61,454 nucleotides of DNA from a virus, in the IMG/VR virus record IMGVR_UViG_3300021368_000782, positions 1-61,454 of that record, one strand, 5' to 3'. The translations under genes were made by a program, and so were the position numbers. Shown piece by piece: positions 22,774 to 29,223 of the stretch; the stretch's first letter is position 1, and each line of letters starts with the position of its first letter. The notes beneath the pieces were generated by a model. That model did not search any database. It was not told the DNA's origin and worked only from the letters and a program-made list of their open reading frames with translations.

Positions 22774-23045
22774 ATGCTTATGCACTCGCTGCTTCTATTT
22801 TAGATGGAACATTCGATGAGGAATATCCTGTGATAGAAAACGAAGATAGATTCAAGAAGTTTACTTTTGGTGGTCGTGAAGTAACTCCTATCCATCTCCT
22901 CTTGCTCTTGAGTGAGATGGAAGGAGTCTATCAACATCTCAAGTATATGGGATTTGAGGAAGATATGAATAGTATGGAAGAGTTGAAAAAGAAATACTAT
23001 AAACTGTACTTCCAAAAGGTAAGGGAAGAAAAGGAATCTAAATAA
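22770..23045 (+). CDS. Small protein, 91 residues
   Basis: The last gene of the operon that began with gene 43 encodes a helical protein (MNAYALAASILDGTFDEEYP at the start; lysine/glutamate-rich end). Its stop is directly followed by a terminator. No recognised family. Confidence 0.65.
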   Translation: MNAYALAASILDGTFDEEYPVIENEDRFKKFTFGGREVTPIHLLLLLSEMEGVYQHLKYMGFEEDMNSMEELKKKYYKLYFQKVREEKESK

Positions 23046-23068
23046 GAGGGTAAGGACCCTCTTTTTTC
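23045..23068 (+). terminator. Rho-independent terminator abutting the next start codon
   Basis: AGAGGGT/ACCCTCT form a seven-pair stem followed by a T run that ends directly at ATG 23069. The only ribosome-binding-like sequence for the next gene (AAGGAC at 23052) is in the hairpin loop. Confidence 0.8.
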
Positions 23069-24784
23069 ATGCCTGAAGCACTGGGAAAATTAACATACTC
23101 AACTCTTAAACGAAGAGCCGGAAGAACTGATAAATTCCTTGAGAAACTCAGGGAAGGGGAGGATTTTGTTTTTACTGACGGTACTGCATCAAAATTAGAT
23201 GGTGTCATTGTTGGTACTGGTACTGGAACCACATATACAAAAGATGATACCGAAACATTAAAAGTAATTTTTGATAATAACGATAAACTAACTTTAAAAT
23301 TAAAAGTTGGTGCTTCAACAAAAGCTTTTGGTACTCTTGCAAAAACAGCAGAATTTGGTGGACAATCTTCTAGTTCTTCTTCAGCAGCAGTTGGAGGAAA
23401 AGTAACTGAAGTTCTTAGTGAAATTGGATTTTGTTTTTACTATGCACTACAAGAAAATGGTCATTTAGATGATTACAATTTGGAAGTGTGGTCTACAGTA
23501 AATAATGTAGCTACATTTAAATCACTATGTTCGACATATAGTGGTGTTCCAAAAATGTTGAAGTTTCAATATAAAGATGTAAAAGATATTAATGCTAGAA
23601 TTGGAACCATGTATTCCTTTTTGAAGGATCATGGTTGGGATGAAGTCTTAAGAACTCAGGTAAGTGCCTTTAAAAGGAAATATCCATCTGTAAATTCTAG
23701 TTATTATCTTGCTAGACCTTCTGCAATACCAGATGCATTCAATCCGTATTCTACATATAGATTGATTAGTGGTACTGTGAAAGACTATGCAGGATTGTCT
23801 AGAGCTATTGGCGAAGATAAATGGAATCCAGCTGATTTCTGGATCTTCAATGATAAAGGTATAAGATTTATGCGTCAGTGGAATGATAAATCGAAACGAC
23901 TAAGAAGTTTGAGGACAGAGAACTATAGCGTTAGTTATATGAATCTTGTTAATAAACAATTAATTAATTTGTATAGACAAGGTTTAGTATATCCAGTTTC
24001 TCTGAAGAGAACATCTGGCACTCCGAATATCAAGGAAATTAATAGTGGAAGAGATGAGATATCTCAAATTGTGGAGTATGATAGAGTCGAACTTTCAAAT
24101 ACAAATTTGGATGTTCAGATTTATTTCACTGTTAAAACTTATGAAGAGAGATCTTTAATATCTACCAAAAATTTGAAAGCAAAAATGAAAACCAAAGCAG
24201 GTGGTTTTCGACTTGAATTAGAGGAAGCTGCTGGTGGTTCTGCAAGACATGGATCTATTGGTATGGGATTGCAGGAATTTATTATCAAAGACACATCTGA
24301 TCAAGGAATTAAAAGACTGGATGATATCAGGGGAGACGCAAAGTATAATAATATAAGAAATGAATTCCCAACCAGAGGTAATAGACACTGGTTGGGGACA
24401 ACTGACTATATTTCATCTAGAAATATTGAAACACTGATTCCGTATTTAAGTGAATTGATGTCTGAAGTTAATTCTACTGGAGCCGATATTGGTGCATTTA
24501 CTAATAAGTATTCTGGATCTGAACAAATTGGAACAAAGATTGGCGCTGCAGAACTTGCAGTATCAATCGCCAAAATTGTGAATAGATATTCTAGAGATAT
24601 TGTTATGGAAAATTTATACAATGCAGCTGGATCACAGGGTATTGCAGCTGGTGTATCTCAGTCACAATTAGATAGGAGAAGACAACTATTGGGAATGTCG
24701 GAAGACGATGTTATCACAATTGTTAACGATACAAAGGCACTGAACGCAGTCTTTCAGGCTGGGTTCCATTTAAAAATTATGTGA
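23069..24784 (+). CDS. Unknown 571-residue protein
   Basis: I do not recognise a characterised family. The N-terminal 90 residues are beta-rich with a GTGTGTTYTKDDTETLKVIF turn, followed by KAFGTLAKTAEFGG, a segment I recall from other large-phage proteins of unknown role, and a serine run. The remainder is mixed alpha/beta with no clear catalytic motif. Start ATG 23069 directly follows a terminator. It precedes the ligase-like nucleotidyltransferase and may belong to the same module. Confidence 0.6.
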   Translation: MPEALGKLTYSTLKRRAGRTDKFLEKLREGEDFVFTDGTASKLDGVIVGTGTGTTYTKDDTETLKVIFDNNDKLTLKLKVGASTKAFGTLAKTAEFGGQSSSSSSAAVGGKVTEVLSEIGFCFYYALQENGHLDDYNLEVWSTVNNVATFKSLCSTYSGVPKMLKFQYKDVKDINARIGTMYSFLKDHGWDEVLRTQVSAFKRKYPSVNSSYYLARPSAIPDAFNPYSTYRLISGTVKDYAGLSRAIGEDKWNPADFWIFNDKGIRFMRQWNDKSKRLRSLRTENYSVSYMNLVNKQLINLYRQGLVYPVSLKRTSGTPNIKEINSGRDEISQIVEYDRVELSNTNLDVQIYFTVKTYEERSLISTKNLKAKMKTKAGGFRLELEEAAGGSARHGSIGMGLQEFIIKDTSDQGIKRLDDIRGDAKYNNIRNEFPTRGNRHWLGTTDYISSRNIETLIPYLSELMSEVNSTGADIGAFTNKYSGSEQIGTKIGAAELAVSIAKIVNRYSRDIVMENLYNAAGSQGIAAGVSQSQLDRRRQLLGMSEDDVITIVNDTKALNAVFQAGFHLKIM

Positions 24785-24786
24785 CC

Positions 24787-24815
24787 TTGACAAAACGCTA
24801 AAAGTCTGGTAGGAT
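24787..24815 (+). promoter_or_regulatory. Sigma-70-type promoter
   Basis: TTGACA and TAGGAT are 17 bases apart, two bases after the upstream stop. It would drive the 24822 gene, leaving almost no untranslated leader (transcription start near 24822). Confidence 0.55.
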
Positions 24816-24821
24816 ACAGTC

Positions 24822-26012
24822 ATGGCAAAAAACACTCACCTCGAACACTTAGAAGACGACATCCTCAACAATGGTAGTGAGGGTGGTAAAGCTGCTGTCG
24901 CTTTCTTGAGATCTCTTGGGGACATGCTATCTCAGGGTGACGGTAGGATGAAAGTTACTACTAAATGGGATGGAGCTCCTGCTATTATATGTGGGACTGA
25001 CCCAACAGCTAATGTATTTTTCGTTGGTAATAAATCTGTTTTTGCAAAAACATCACCTAAAGTTTGTTATAATGATGCAATCGTAGACAAGTATTATCCC
25101 GCTAGTGGATTGAATTCCATCTTAAAAGATTGTTTGAAGTATCTTTCAAAATTGAATATCGAAGGTGTAATTCAAGGAGACTTACTTTTTACTGAAAATA
25201 CAAAAACAATTGCTACTATTGGCGGAAAACGCTGTGTAGTATTTCAACCAAACACTATTACATATGCAATCCCGCTTGATACAGAACTTGGTCAACGTGT
25301 TAACTCTTCTAAAATTGGCATTGTTTTCCATACCACTTATAATGGTTCTTCTCTTCAAGGGATGTCTGCAGGATTTGGTGTCGATGTATCTCCGTATCAG
25401 GGACATGATGATATTGCTGTGTTCTCTTCCGACTTCAGTGACGCAAGTGGTTCTGCAAATTTCAATATGGCGGAACTGAGAACTTTTAACATGTCTATCA
25501 ATAAGGCAGAAGGTTCTCTGAAACAAGCATCTAGATTCCTGGATGCAATGGCTGGTACTGATCGCTATTCTTTCAACGTTATCTTCAAACAGTTTTTCAA
25601 TACTTATATTCGCGCTGGTAGGTCTATTCCTTCTGTTAATACTGTGGTTGCAGATTTTGCTGCATACTATGAAAAACTCATGGACACTGAGATCCAGAAG
25701 AAGAAAACTGACTCTGCAAAGAACAAGTGGATCAAAGTTAAAACAGATGGTTTGAAGTTTATCGCTGCAAACAAACAGTCTATCTACATGACTGCTGCAT
25801 CTTATAAGAACTTGACTGCAGCAAAACTGATTGTGATCCGCAAACTAGAGAAAGTCAAGGACATTGGTACGTTCTTGAAGGACGGAAATGGATATAAAGT
25901 TACCGCACCAGAAGGTTTCGTTGCGATTAAATCTGGTCGTGCTATGAAATTAGTTGATAGACTTGAGTTCTCGGTTGCGAACTTCACGGTGGACAAAAAT
26001 TGGGACAAATAA
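24822..26012 (+). CDS. Ligase/nucleotidyltransferase-superfamily-like protein
   Basis: This 396-residue protein shows the ordered motifs of the covalent nucleotidyltransferase (DNA/RNA ligase and capping enzyme) superfamily. Motif I is KWDG (residues 48-51, lysine as AMP acceptor), a motif III-like segment is VIQGDLLF (116-123), motif IV is EGFVAIK (364-370) and motif V is MKLV (375-378). A helical insertion separates motifs III and IV. Many phage relatives are labelled as of unknown function. The call is by motif pattern only. It sits directly before an NMNAT-like gene. Confidence 0.55.
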   Translation: MAKNTHLEHLEDDILNNGSEGGKAAVAFLRSLGDMLSQGDGRMKVTTKWDGAPAIICGTDPTANVFFVGNKSVFAKTSPKVCYNDAIVDKYYPASGLNSILKDCLKYLSKLNIEGVIQGDLLFTENTKTIATIGGKRCVVFQPNTITYAIPLDTELGQRVNSSKIGIVFHTTYNGSSLQGMSAGFGVDVSPYQGHDDIAVFSSDFSDASGSANFNMAELRTFNMSINKAEGSLKQASRFLDAMAGTDRYSFNVIFKQFFNTYIRAGRSIPSVNTVVADFAAYYEKLMDTEIQKKKTDSAKNKWIKVKTDGLKFIAANKQSIYMTAASYKNLTAAKLIVIRKLEKVKDIGTFLKDGNGYKVTAPEGFVAIKSGRAMKLVDRLEFSVANFTVDKNWDK

Positions 26013-26043
26013 ATAATATGGTAGAAACCATTTGAGGTTTTGG

Positions 26044-27309
26044 ATGAAGTCGTTTAGCAATTTTTTCGGTGAGGCTCGTACCAAAGCAGGAAAGGAAGCT
26101 GAGAAGAAGGGTTTAGTTCACACAGGTAAAGGATATTACGCCGATAAGAATGGTGCTATTGTCGCCAAAGCTGAAGGTGGTGAAAGACTAGTCAATCTTT
26201 CTGCGAAAGAAAAAGCAAGTCTAAAGAACGGATCTCCTTTGATGCCTCCGCAATCTGCTGCGGATGTAGAAACGATGCAACAGATGGCGTCTGGTCTTCA
26301 GTCAGTGAAGGGTGGACAAGAACAACCTGCAGCCGAAGAAGAACCCAAAGCGGAAAAAGAAAAAGGTGATGAGGAAGAAGCACTAGTACCTCGTAATGAG
26401 GGTGGTGGTGAAATCGTCATTACTTTTGGTCGCTTCAATCCACCTCACGTTGGACATGAAAAACTCATCAATAGAGTTGCTGATGAAGCACATTCTAGTG
26501 GTGCAGACTATATGATCTACCCAAGTCATTCAAACGATCCTAAAAAGAATCCTCTGGATTTTGGAACTAAGTTGAATGCCATGCAACACATGTTCCCTAG
26601 TCACGCTTCTAACATTGCAAATGATCCGCAAAACGGAAGAAACATTTTTGATGTTCTGAAGAATCTACATGCACAGGGATATGATAATGTGAAGGTTGTC
26701 GTTGGTGATGACCGTGTAAAAGAGTTTACGAATATGACTTCCAAATATAATGGGAAGACATACAACTTTGGTAAACTTGACGTTGTAAGTGCTGGAGAAA
26801 GAGATCCTGATTCTGATGATGTAGAAGGTATGTCTGCATCTAAGATGAGAAAAGCGGCAATGGAAAATGACTATGACGCTTTTAAGAAAGGTCTACCTAA
26901 AGATATGGCATCGAAGGAAGCAAAAGCAATCTACATGCAGTTGCGTCGTTCAATGAATATCGATGAACAAACTTGGGAAGTTGCTCCTAAGTTGGAGGAA
27001 GAAAATCTCCGCGAAGCATATCGCAACGGTGAAATCTTCAATGTAAATGACATTGTAGAGAACCTCAACACTGGTGTAATCGGCAGAATTATTACCCGTG
27101 GTACAAACTATGTCATCGTAGTTGATGAGGAAAACAGAGTCTTCCGCAACTGGATCAAAGATCTTATGGAAGTCCATTGGGAGATCGGTACTGATGAATA
27201 CCGCAATGCAGTGATGGCATTGACTCCTGGTCAACCTGTGGTTGATTTTACAAAAAACAAAATCACACTAAATAGTAAAAAAACGAGCAAAAAGAATGGA
27301 CTTAAATAA
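26044..27309 (+). CDS. NMNAT-like nucleotidyltransferase with capsid-targeting-like N-terminus
   Basis: This 421-residue multidomain protein starts at ATG 26044 with a GAGG upstream. Residues 1-20 (MKSFSNFFGEARTKAGKEAE) resemble the T4 internal-protein capsid-targeting sequence, MKTYQEFIAE followed by ARVGAGK in IPIII. After a charged linker (about 85-115) comes a HIGH-type nucleotidyltransferase domain: VITFGRFNPPHVGHEKLI and, later, GMSASKMRKAA. This resembles NadR/NMN adenylyltransferases. A C-terminal small beta domain (GVIGRIITRGTNYVIVVDEE) follows. Substrate is unproven. Confidence 0.7.
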   Translation: MKSFSNFFGEARTKAGKEAEKKGLVHTGKGYYADKNGAIVAKAEGGERLVNLSAKEKASLKNGSPLMPPQSAADVETMQQMASGLQSVKGGQEQPAAEEEPKAEKEKGDEEEALVPRNEGGGEIVITFGRFNPPHVGHEKLINRVADEAHSSGADYMIYPSHSNDPKKNPLDFGTKLNAMQHMFPSHASNIANDPQNGRNIFDVLKNLHAQGYDNVKVVVGDDRVKEFTNMTSKYNGKTYNFGKLDVVSAGERDPDSDDVEGMSASKMRKAAMENDYDAFKKGLPKDMASKEAKAIYMQLRRSMNIDEQTWEVAPKLEEENLREAYRNGEIFNVNDIVENLNTGVIGRIITRGTNYVIVVDEENRVFRNWIKDLMEVHWEIGTDEYRNAVMALTPGQPVVDFTKNKITLNSKKTSKKNGLK

Positions 27310-28954
27310 GTATTCTTCATATCTTTCACTCGATCCTTCTGCACTCTATGCTGCACAAAGATTGGTAGAAAGAGTTGTTAGATATCATGGCGAGGAATAT
27401 GAAGCCATGGTTCAGGAACTAGAGGAGTCTCTACATGGCAAGACTCTAGAATATGCAATGGAACTCTTCGAGGAGAGAATTGCTGAAGGTCTAGAGTACA
27501 TGGGTGTAAAGATTGCCTTCAATGGTAAGACTTACAGTGCTCCTACTGTTGGACTCTATGGTGTTAAATCGAAACCAGAAATTAAAGCTGGTATCAAAGC
27601 AAAGGTTCTCGCGAGAAACGAAAGAGAACAGAAAGAAGAATACGAAGTCTCTCTTGCTGACAAGAAAGGTAATACTCAGGCTTATAAGAACTATAAGGCT
27701 GGTATGAAAAATAAGTTGACTGGTAAACCTCTATACAAAGCAGGTAAAGGTGTTGAAGAAGCACTTGATCCTGTAGGTCAGGAAGACGGTGATGTCAACA
27801 ACGACGGTAAGAAGGACAAGACCGATAAGTATCTGAAGAATCGTCGTCGTGCAATCAGCAAGGCAATTGCTGCTAAAGAAGAACATGAAATCGAAGCACT
27901 GGTTGATTACTTTGTAACTGAACAGATCGCTAAGAGTCCAGAAGAACTCGACGAGATCATGTTTGAGATCGATGAGGAGCATACCGAGTACTTCCTTGAG
28001 AAAGCAATGGAACTCAAGGGTAAGAAGAAAGGTAATGTAATCATCAATCCTAAGACGGAGAAGATGCAAGAAGAGGAACAGTCTGGTCAAGAAAAGACTC
28101 AACTTGCAAATCAAAAGAGAATGATGGCGAAGAAACATATGATGGATCGCCAGAAGATGCAACTCAAGAAACAGGGTAAACTCAACGTCAACGCTGAAAG
28201 TGTTGAGATGGTTAATGAGGTAGATTACTCTGGTACTCCTGCGAAGAATGATGCTGAGTCTGAGAAGGCAAAACAGTATCCTACGTTCGCTGAACTGAAA
28301 GCAAAACTTGCACAAGCAGGTGATCCTGCAAAGGGAATTCCTGCTGATACTCAACTACCACAGACTTCTTTGAAGAAGGAAGAGGTAGAAGATATCGAAG
28401 AACTCTATAAGGGTAAGCACGGTCAGTCTGAGAAAGAGTATCAAGACTCACGTTCTGATGCAGGTAAGATGGTCTCTGGTGATTCCAAGGGTAGTGGTGC
28501 AAATTATTCTTATAAAGCAAAGAATACTGGACCTAATCCTGCTGGAGGTTCTAAGAAACCACAAGGTCAAGCTCGCATGGGTGCCAAAGATAGAGAGTAT
28601 CTTAAGTATCGCAAGGCAAACCTGAAGGCGAAGAAGGAAGAGTTTGAGATGGATGAGGCAACTTATCCTCAGGATTTCAAAGGTGGTCCTGTAGCAAAAA
28701 AGAAAACAGGTAAACCCAATGCTCAGGGTGACTATGGTAAGAAGGACATCAATGAAGAAGATGCAGATCGTTTGAGAGATCAACGCATGGAACGTGGTGG
28801 TGTTGATGGTAATACCAATTACAGAAAACCAGCAAAGTTCGCATCTGGTCCTTCTAAGAAAAAGTATGACGGTATGTCCGCACTCGATAGAGTGAAGTCA
28901 GATATTCGCGCCAAGTATGGTAAGGGTGCGATTATGGATACTAAGAAGAAGTGA
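27296..28954 (+). CDS. Highly charged protein with a dockerin-type EF-hand loop
   Basis: This 552-residue, lysine/glutamate-rich protein overlaps the NMNAT-like gene by 14 bases. Residues 166-177 form a canonical EF-hand/dockerin calcium loop (GDVNNDGKKDKTD) with acidic or polar residues at positions 1, 3, 5, 9 and 12. Much of the rest is predicted helical or disordered, with Met/Lys/Gln-rich stretches (MMAKKHMMDRQKMQLKKQG). The composition suggests an internal head, scaffold-like or packaged protein (inference). Confidence 0.65.
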   Translation: MDLNKYSSYLSLDPSALYAAQRLVERVVRYHGEEYEAMVQELEESLHGKTLEYAMELFEERIAEGLEYMGVKIAFNGKTYSAPTVGLYGVKSKPEIKAGIKAKVLARNEREQKEEYEVSLADKKGNTQAYKNYKAGMKNKLTGKPLYKAGKGVEEALDPVGQEDGDVNNDGKKDKTDKYLKNRRRAISKAIAAKEEHEIEALVDYFVTEQIAKSPEELDEIMFEIDEEHTEYFLEKAMELKGKKKGNVIINPKTEKMQEEEQSGQEKTQLANQKRMMAKKHMMDRQKMQLKKQGKLNVNAESVEMVNEVDYSGTPAKNDAESEKAKQYPTFAELKAKLAQAGDPAKGIPADTQLPQTSLKKEEVEDIEELYKGKHGQSEKEYQDSRSDAGKMVSGDSKGSGANYSYKAKNTGPNPAGGSKKPQGQARMGAKDREYLKYRKANLKAKKEEFEMDEATYPQDFKGGPVAKKKTGKPNAQGDYGKKDINEEDADRLRDQRMERGGVDGNTNYRKPAKFASGPSKKKYDGMSALDRVKSDIRAKYGKGAIMDTKKK

Positions 28955-28994
28955 TACTAAATAGTGTGGCTCGCAATATTTGAGGCACACTATT

Positions 28995-29198
28995 ATGTTA
29001 TCTTTCTTACTACCATTCGCATACAAAATTGTTGACGCTGCAGTTGCCAAAATCCCTGATGATGAGGAACTGGGCGAAAAACTACTTGACATTTGCTTAC
29101 TCATTCTGGGTAAAGCAGTCAAACTGACAAAGACTGATATGGATGATCAGCTTTTAGAAGCTGTCACCAAAGCAATCAAAACACGCGAGGAAGCGTGA
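28995..29198 (+). CDS. Small helical protein, 67 residues
   Basis: A GAGG lies 10 bases before ATG 28995; a CTAAATA late-type motif is upstream at about 28957. The product begins MLSFLLPFAYKIVDAAVAKI and is wholly helical with an acidic centre. It is followed at once by a terminator. No recognised family. Confidence 0.65.
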   Translation: MLSFLLPFAYKIVDAAVAKIPDDEELGEKLLDICLLILGKAVKLTKTDMDDQLLEAVTKAIKTREEA

Positions 29199-29201
29199 TC
29201 T

Positions 29202-29223
29202 AGGGGGCATACGCCCCCTTTTG
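29202..29223 (+). terminator. Rho-independent terminator
   Basis: GGGGGC and GCCCCC form a perfect stem with an ATA-type loop, followed by TTTTG. It closes the 24822-29198 transcription unit. Confidence 0.85.

Follow-up and report, generated by a model that had tools for sequence, protein, structure and literature searches.

We found that a 421-residue NMNAT-like enzyme encoded by a marine cyanophage starts with a short tag of the kind that brings internal proteins into the head of phage T4. That the tag is a T4-type capsid-targeting sequence (CTS) and that the enzyme is encapsidated is well supported by homology, and we put the probability of this reading at roughly 0.82. Capsid targeting had been proposed in a preliminary description of the DNA, and it gained support from conservation at the positions that matter in T4, from orthologues present in virions, from other tagged cargo and from matching motifs in MCPs.

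The stretch analysed (the window, 61,454 nucleotides) derives from a T4-like phage of marine cyanobacteria whose nearest annotated relatives are Kyanoviridae. DNA polymerase, UvsX, gp41-type genes and nrdA/B are readable in it, as are host-like metabolic genes including transaldolase, gnd/zwf and pstS. Among the phage records matching the gene, 367 cover at least 80% of the protein, typically from residue 1. A GAGG-type ribosome site lies 7 nt upstream of the ATG at 26044, and relatives use the same start methionine. Residues 1-17, encoded at 26044-26094, read MKSFSNFFGEARTKAGK. A structure model (mean pLDDT 80.6) showed a short helix at residues 5-10, followed by a confidently modelled small domain, a disordered linker, a confident NMNAT-like domain and a beta domain. 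The small domain, referred to as module 2, follows the pattern AxxAxxxGLxxxGxGxYxDxxG. Mean column entropy is 2.17 bits over residues 51-120, compared with 1.1-1.5 elsewhere in the protein. The protein had been described as a HIGH-motif nucleotidyltransferase with a small beta domain, and GRFNPPHVGH, MSASKMR and the C-terminal beta domain were indeed all present.

Table 1. Features of the NMNAT-like gene and its surroundings (positions in the window).
Feature	Position	Strand	Evidence
Terminator-like sites bounding the block	23044-23063 and 29202-29219
571-aa hypothetical protein, first gene of the block	23069..24784	+	weak similarity to S-ShM2_179 and S-H9-1 gp143, same position
DUF6267 protein with ligase-type motifs, upstream partner in synteny	24822..26012	+	Pfam DUF6267 E=1e-130
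Whole gene, cyanophage T4-GC190 'cytitidyltransferase', 421 aa	26044..27309	+	560 phage records matched
Putative capsid-targeting propeptide, residues 1-10 (MKSFSNFFGE)	26044..26073	+	conserved F4, F7, E10 (77 relatives); T4 mutational roles; T4 ipII/ipIII control
Predicted prohead-protease cut, between E10 and A11
Small folded adaptor-like domain (module 2), residues 14-62	26083..26229	+	pLDDT 86-95 over residues 11-60
Low-complexity linker, residues 63-120	26230..26403	+	poorly conserved; pLDDT mostly <50
HIGH-superfamily nucleotidyltransferase domain, residues 121-303	26404..26952	+	Pfam, PHROG, Foldseek matches
GRFNPPHVGH (HIGH motif), residues 129-138	26428-26457	+
MSASKMR, residues 263-269	26830-26850	+
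C-terminal SH3-like beta domain, residues 330-378	27031..27177	+	strands 337-376, pLDDT about 90
552-residue homologue of virion proteins S-SCSM1_89 and _92	27296..28954	+	53-67% identical over 49-126 residues (blastp)

Residues 1-11 (MKSFSNFFGEA) align with MKTYQEFIAEA of T4 IPII/IPIII. When compared with the T4 sequences (NC_000866; ipII MKTYQEFIAEARVGAGK, ipIII MKTYQEFIAEASVVKAK), five residues are identical (M1, K2, F7, E10, A11) and three have similar counterparts (S3/T, F4/Y, F8/I). This alignment confirmed the earlier observation that the N-terminus resembles the T4 internal-protein signal, E-A site included. The match had been drawn over 17 residues, of which the first 11 hold up; other homologues do not conserve the stretch after residue 11, which was given no weight. 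ARVGAGK, previously attributed to IPIII, is placed in IPII by RefSeq T4 (NC_000866).

In an alignment of 77 distinct relatives, F occupies position 4 in 91% and position 7 in 100%, and E occupies position 10 in 99%; residue 8 is hydrophobic, mostly L, I or F, and residue 11 is mainly A or S. The relatives were picked as best matches to a tag-containing query, and the values describe conservation among full-length orthologues, not a superfamily survey. Codons differ at the conserved tag residues, indicating that selection acts on the peptide. In T4 IPIII, targeting depends on residues 4 and 7 and processing on residues 8 and 10 (reviewed in PMC9026906). The conserved positions of the cyanophage tag are the same four, and the window protein satisfies both the targeting requirement of a T4-type CTS (aromatic residue 4 and F7; here F4 and F7) and the processing requirement (hydrophobic residue 8, E10 and A/G/S thereafter; here F8, E10 and A11).

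To assess chance occurrence, we searched 1.67 Mb of phage loci for K.[FYL]..F[LIMFV].E[AGSDEQRT] immediately following a start codon. The pattern matched 100 times, against zero matches when the DNA was reversed or shuffled. NMNAT-like genes account for 87 of the matches, and the remaining 13 include the positive controls T4 ipII and ipIII as well as a kinase, adenylate-kinase genes and small genes nearby. As these loci were chosen by NMNAT and DUF6267 searches, the count is not a genome-wide rate. Looking for the same signal on further proteins of this phage had been suggested as a check; within the 61-kb window the N-terminal tag occurs only on the gene at 26044-27309.

Several orthologues have been found in virions. 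S-SCSM1_91, a virion protein (PMC9602691), starts MKSFLQFLKEA, has the same full architecture and is 40% identical to the window protein over residues 1-402. S-CREM2 gp154 (MKNFSSFLTEA) was detected in virions as well (PMC10665884), as was S-SZBM1_140 (MRFRQFIIEA; PMC9146016). The T4-GC190 orthologue of S-SM1 is present in purified particles (PMC3037559), and virion presence is likewise reported for S-CBWM1. The T4-GC190 cytitidyltransferase/NMNAT-like virion protein is the same gene as ours in the same genomic position, with a full-length homologue in virions. Presence in the mature virion is established by published proteomics for orthologues only, not for the window phage. The virion presence of the NMNAT-like protein is already published and its delivery is not itself new. 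Among the openly licensed papers searched, none ties this protein to a capsid-targeting sequence or to other cargo, and the link between tag and cargo, including its use on other enzymes, seems to be the new part. The short versions gp154, S-SZBM1_140 and P-RSM6 have lost module 2 and kept the tag, which identifies the tag as the constant part.

We then asked how well the tag predicts cargo, using S-CREM2 (218 CDS) as test genome because its virion list is printed in its paper (PMC10665884). The fixed pattern marked 4 of the 218 N-termini, namely gp6, gp13, gp14 and gp154, each of which has been detected in virions (Fisher p=0.0027), compared with 0.002 matches expected per shuffled proteome. 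A tag profile trained without S-CREM2 scored its top five CDS from 27 to 1.0 and the sixth at -9.5. All five were virion-detected, the fifth being gp136 (MQTFSMFFSED), which the fixed pattern had missed. The five comprise the NMNAT-like gp154, the kinase-like gp14, the SAM lyase gp6 (PF23780 E=2e-19) and two unknowns. A rank test of the tag score over all S-CREM2 virion proteins was not significant (p=0.24). This is expected because tail and shell proteins need no tag, and the information lies solely in the highest ranks. Matches in gp209 and gp84, obtained by scanning the first 25 residues, lack the E, look like chance and were discarded.

In virion-detected gp12 of S-CREM2 the motif lies at residues 17-26 and not at the N-terminus, and it is also away from the N-terminus in the S-CRM01 and S-H34 homologues. 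Module 2 recurs once in gp12 and twice in gp14, indicating that tag and adaptor serve unrelated proteins. As a separate observation, gp12 (L021, 7704-10313) is called Cas9 in the paper and the record, has no Pfam match and belongs to phrog_3561, whose N-terminus matches the window tag plus module 2. We also noted that S-SCSM1_93 (L188, 41627-41836), a 69-residue virion protein, has a tag-like stretch, RTFKEFLEYIE, at its C-terminus.

Tagged genes recur next to the DUF6267 gene. In S-CRM01 a run of tagged proteins follows it, including a kinase (MISFDQFLSEK) and an NMNAT-like protein (MKLFNQFFKEA). In wild contigs the gene after DUF6267 is tagged whether it encodes an NMNAT-like protein, an adenylate kinase or a zeta-like P-loop protein. 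The adenylate kinase of L134 (2954-3538) matches PF00406 with E=1e-38, and a tagged gene of this type lies directly or shortly after DUF6267 in L134, L137, L138, L141, L153 and L155. These adenylate kinases indicate that a different nucleotide enzyme can fill the cargo slot. P-loop proteins with tag-like starts (MKQFLTHLSEG, FIQYINEG and MKFKEFLLQEG) were seen just after DUF6267 in L139, where the protein is zeta-toxin-like, L143 and L144.

In the window, the gene sits directly after the DUF6267 gene in a co-directional block spanning 23069-29200. The 552-residue protein downstream is probably another head or internal protein; it is lysine- and glutamate-rich and has an EF-hand-like DVNNDGKKDKTDKYL in common with S-SCSM1 virion proteins. 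ATAAATA is a possible T4-type late promoter element, and a copy at 26009-26015, 35 nt before the gene, was not taken as evidence since the window holds 14 copies compared with 12.9 expected by chance.

The tag is not universal. Homologues that have the domain and lack the signal had been named in advance as evidence that would refute the idea. The tag is present in most cyanophage orthologues but absent from the P-HM1/S-H9-1 clade and from jumbo-phage homologues such as that of RaK2. S-H9-1 gp145, L148 and P-HM1_162, which occupy the same genomic slot, are shorter catalytic proteins without the tag, and in S-H9-1 and P-HM1 the C-terminal beta domain is encoded by a gene of its own (gp146 and P-HM1_163, respectively). 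These tag-less homologues count against universality, yet they are distinct branches. In the split loci (L189, 4673-6570, P-HM1_162/163; L012, 4992-5800, S-H9-1), the genes for the split-off C-terminal domain have degenerate tag-like starts (MKSLADFTKK and MKDFKKLREEA).

Prohead protease exists in cyanophages, and their MCPs carry related motifs near residue 50-60: LLTE↓A in S-CREM2, ILTE↓A in S-SZBM1 and SGSFLAE↓A in S-SCSM1, all three matching the end of the tag. The MCP of S-SM1 has ILTE↓T. A cut at E10↓A11 in the window phage is supported by this sequence comparison and not shown. Position P3 of the window tag is F (FGE↓A) as opposed to L/I in T4, and F is also seen in relatives. Cleavage by the prohead protease remains inferred in the absence of N-terminal peptide data.

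Encapsidation might be achieved differently if the N-terminus were merely a prohead-protease site while module 2 or the C-terminal beta domain targeted the head. The tag does end in an L/I-x-E↓A motif like the MCP cleavage site, and module 2 is common to two other virion proteins. However, the T4 targeting positions 4 and 7 are as conserved as the cleavage residues, gp154 and S-SZBM1_140 are found in virions without module 2, and gp6 and gp13 possess neither module 2 nor the NMNAT C-terminal domain, making this account improbable. Alternatively, an abundant intracellular metabolic enzyme might contaminate virions, with the motif serving, for example, translation or protein stability. CsCl-purified preparations may hold contaminants, as the S-CREM2 and S-SCSM1 authors themselves caution (PMC10665884, PMC9602691), and the tag-less clade retains the enzyme in its slot. 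Detection in several independent phages speaks against carry-over, as does the fact that, of 218 S-CREM2 proteins, the five picked out by the tag have all been detected in virions. The internal position of the motif in gp12 and in the S-CRM01 and S-H34 homologues of gp12 makes an effect at the start codon less plausible. We therefore consider contamination very improbable and favour a CTS that loads the enzyme into the head.

Less settled is what the encapsidated enzyme does. The nucleotidyltransferase domain matched Pfam CTP_transf_like (E=2.5e-6, 28.2 bits, cut-off 21) and the protein matched phrog_395 (E=1.7e-100). Motifs and Rossmann fold qualify it as a HIGH-superfamily nucleotidyltransferase, and HIGH and SxSxxR-type catalytic motifs are invariant among relatives. 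It fell short of the curated NadD family (TIGR00482, 20.3 bits, cut-off 112.45), and searching the PDB by sequence with the family profile yielded no significant match. In Foldseek the best match was NadD 8aih (E=1.9e-6, TM 0.62). Bacterial NadD has the same fold and catalytic motifs; by structural alignment the window protein is only about 16% identical to it, lies below the NCBIfam cut-off and has extra N- and C-terminal domains. NMN/NaMN adenylyltransferase activity is our best guess, an inference we would give even odds, and the substrate is unproven. It is possible, if somewhat less likely, that the encapsidated enzyme transfers the nucleotide to another substrate, such as pantetheine or sugar phosphate, protein or an RNA end, perhaps together with the DUF6267 protein, and has no part in NAD synthesis. 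The sequence scores reach the superfamily level only, PPAT and FAD synthetase match by fold too, phrog_455 spans DUF6267 plus the NMNAT domain, and the two genes adjoin in many phages. Against this, the 28 best Foldseek matches are all NadD/NMNAT and the catalytic motifs are intact.

With respect to the DUF6267 protein itself, invariant KWDG, QGD, EGxV and KxVxR are ordered as in DNA/RNA ligase-type nucleotidyltransferases. A structure search gave no significant PDB match, DNA/RNA ligases recurring among the weak matches only. The protein does not appear in the accessible portion of the S-SZBM1 virion list (PMC9146016).

By analogy with T4, we propose that the propeptide MKSFSNFFGE would bind the scaffolding core during prohead assembly, an inferred interaction, and that the prohead protease would cut after E10 to leave a mature N-terminus ARTKAGK.... 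The small domain, linker, NMNAT-fold enzyme and SH3-like domain would then stay in the head with the DNA. Ejection of the enzyme into the cell at infection is likely, again as judged from T4. There it would probably move AMP to NMN/NaMN, making or restoring NAD+, or perform a related adenylyl transfer. Phage NAD+ reconstitution pathways such as NARP1 exist (PMC12774641). The benefit could possibly be NAD+ supply at the onset of infection or the countering of an NAD-depleting defence, which is inferred and without a tested link to NARP1.

Like the window protein, T4 IPI/IPII/IPIII have a 10-residue N-terminal propeptide with an aromatic residue 4, F7, a hydrophobic residue 8, E10 and a small residue after the cut, and they are found in the virion, as are orthologues of the window protein. 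Unlike these small basic proteins, the window protein is an enzyme of 421 residues whose tag is followed by a folded domain; the window phage belongs to Kyanoviridae and T4 to Straboviridae, and cleavage has not been shown in the former. T4 gpAlt, an injected ADP-ribosyltransferase, is a head-packaged enzyme too and in T4 is gp21-processed and ejected; its chemistry is different and its propeptide differs, having 7 residues (PMC9026906).

We tentatively suggest that T4-like marine phages share a portable head-loading code, in which a CTS, in many cases with a small adaptor domain behind it, delivers swappable enzymes (NMNAT-like, adenylate kinase, SAM lyase, protein kinase or zeta-like P-loop kinase) as soon as infection begins. 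If this speculative code were true, NAD+/ATP would be restored or host immunity blunted before any phage gene is expressed. The five tagged S-CREM2 proteins include three of the four enzymes that its authors list separately among the virion proteins, as regulatory or metabolic. Cyanophages belong to the most abundant viruses of the ocean and their injected proteins are largely unknown; a tag readable from sequence would allow these proteins to be predicted. The tag also takes head targeting of the T4 kind into a second phage family and onto true metabolic enzymes, and it could allow chosen proteins to be loaded into cyanophage heads.
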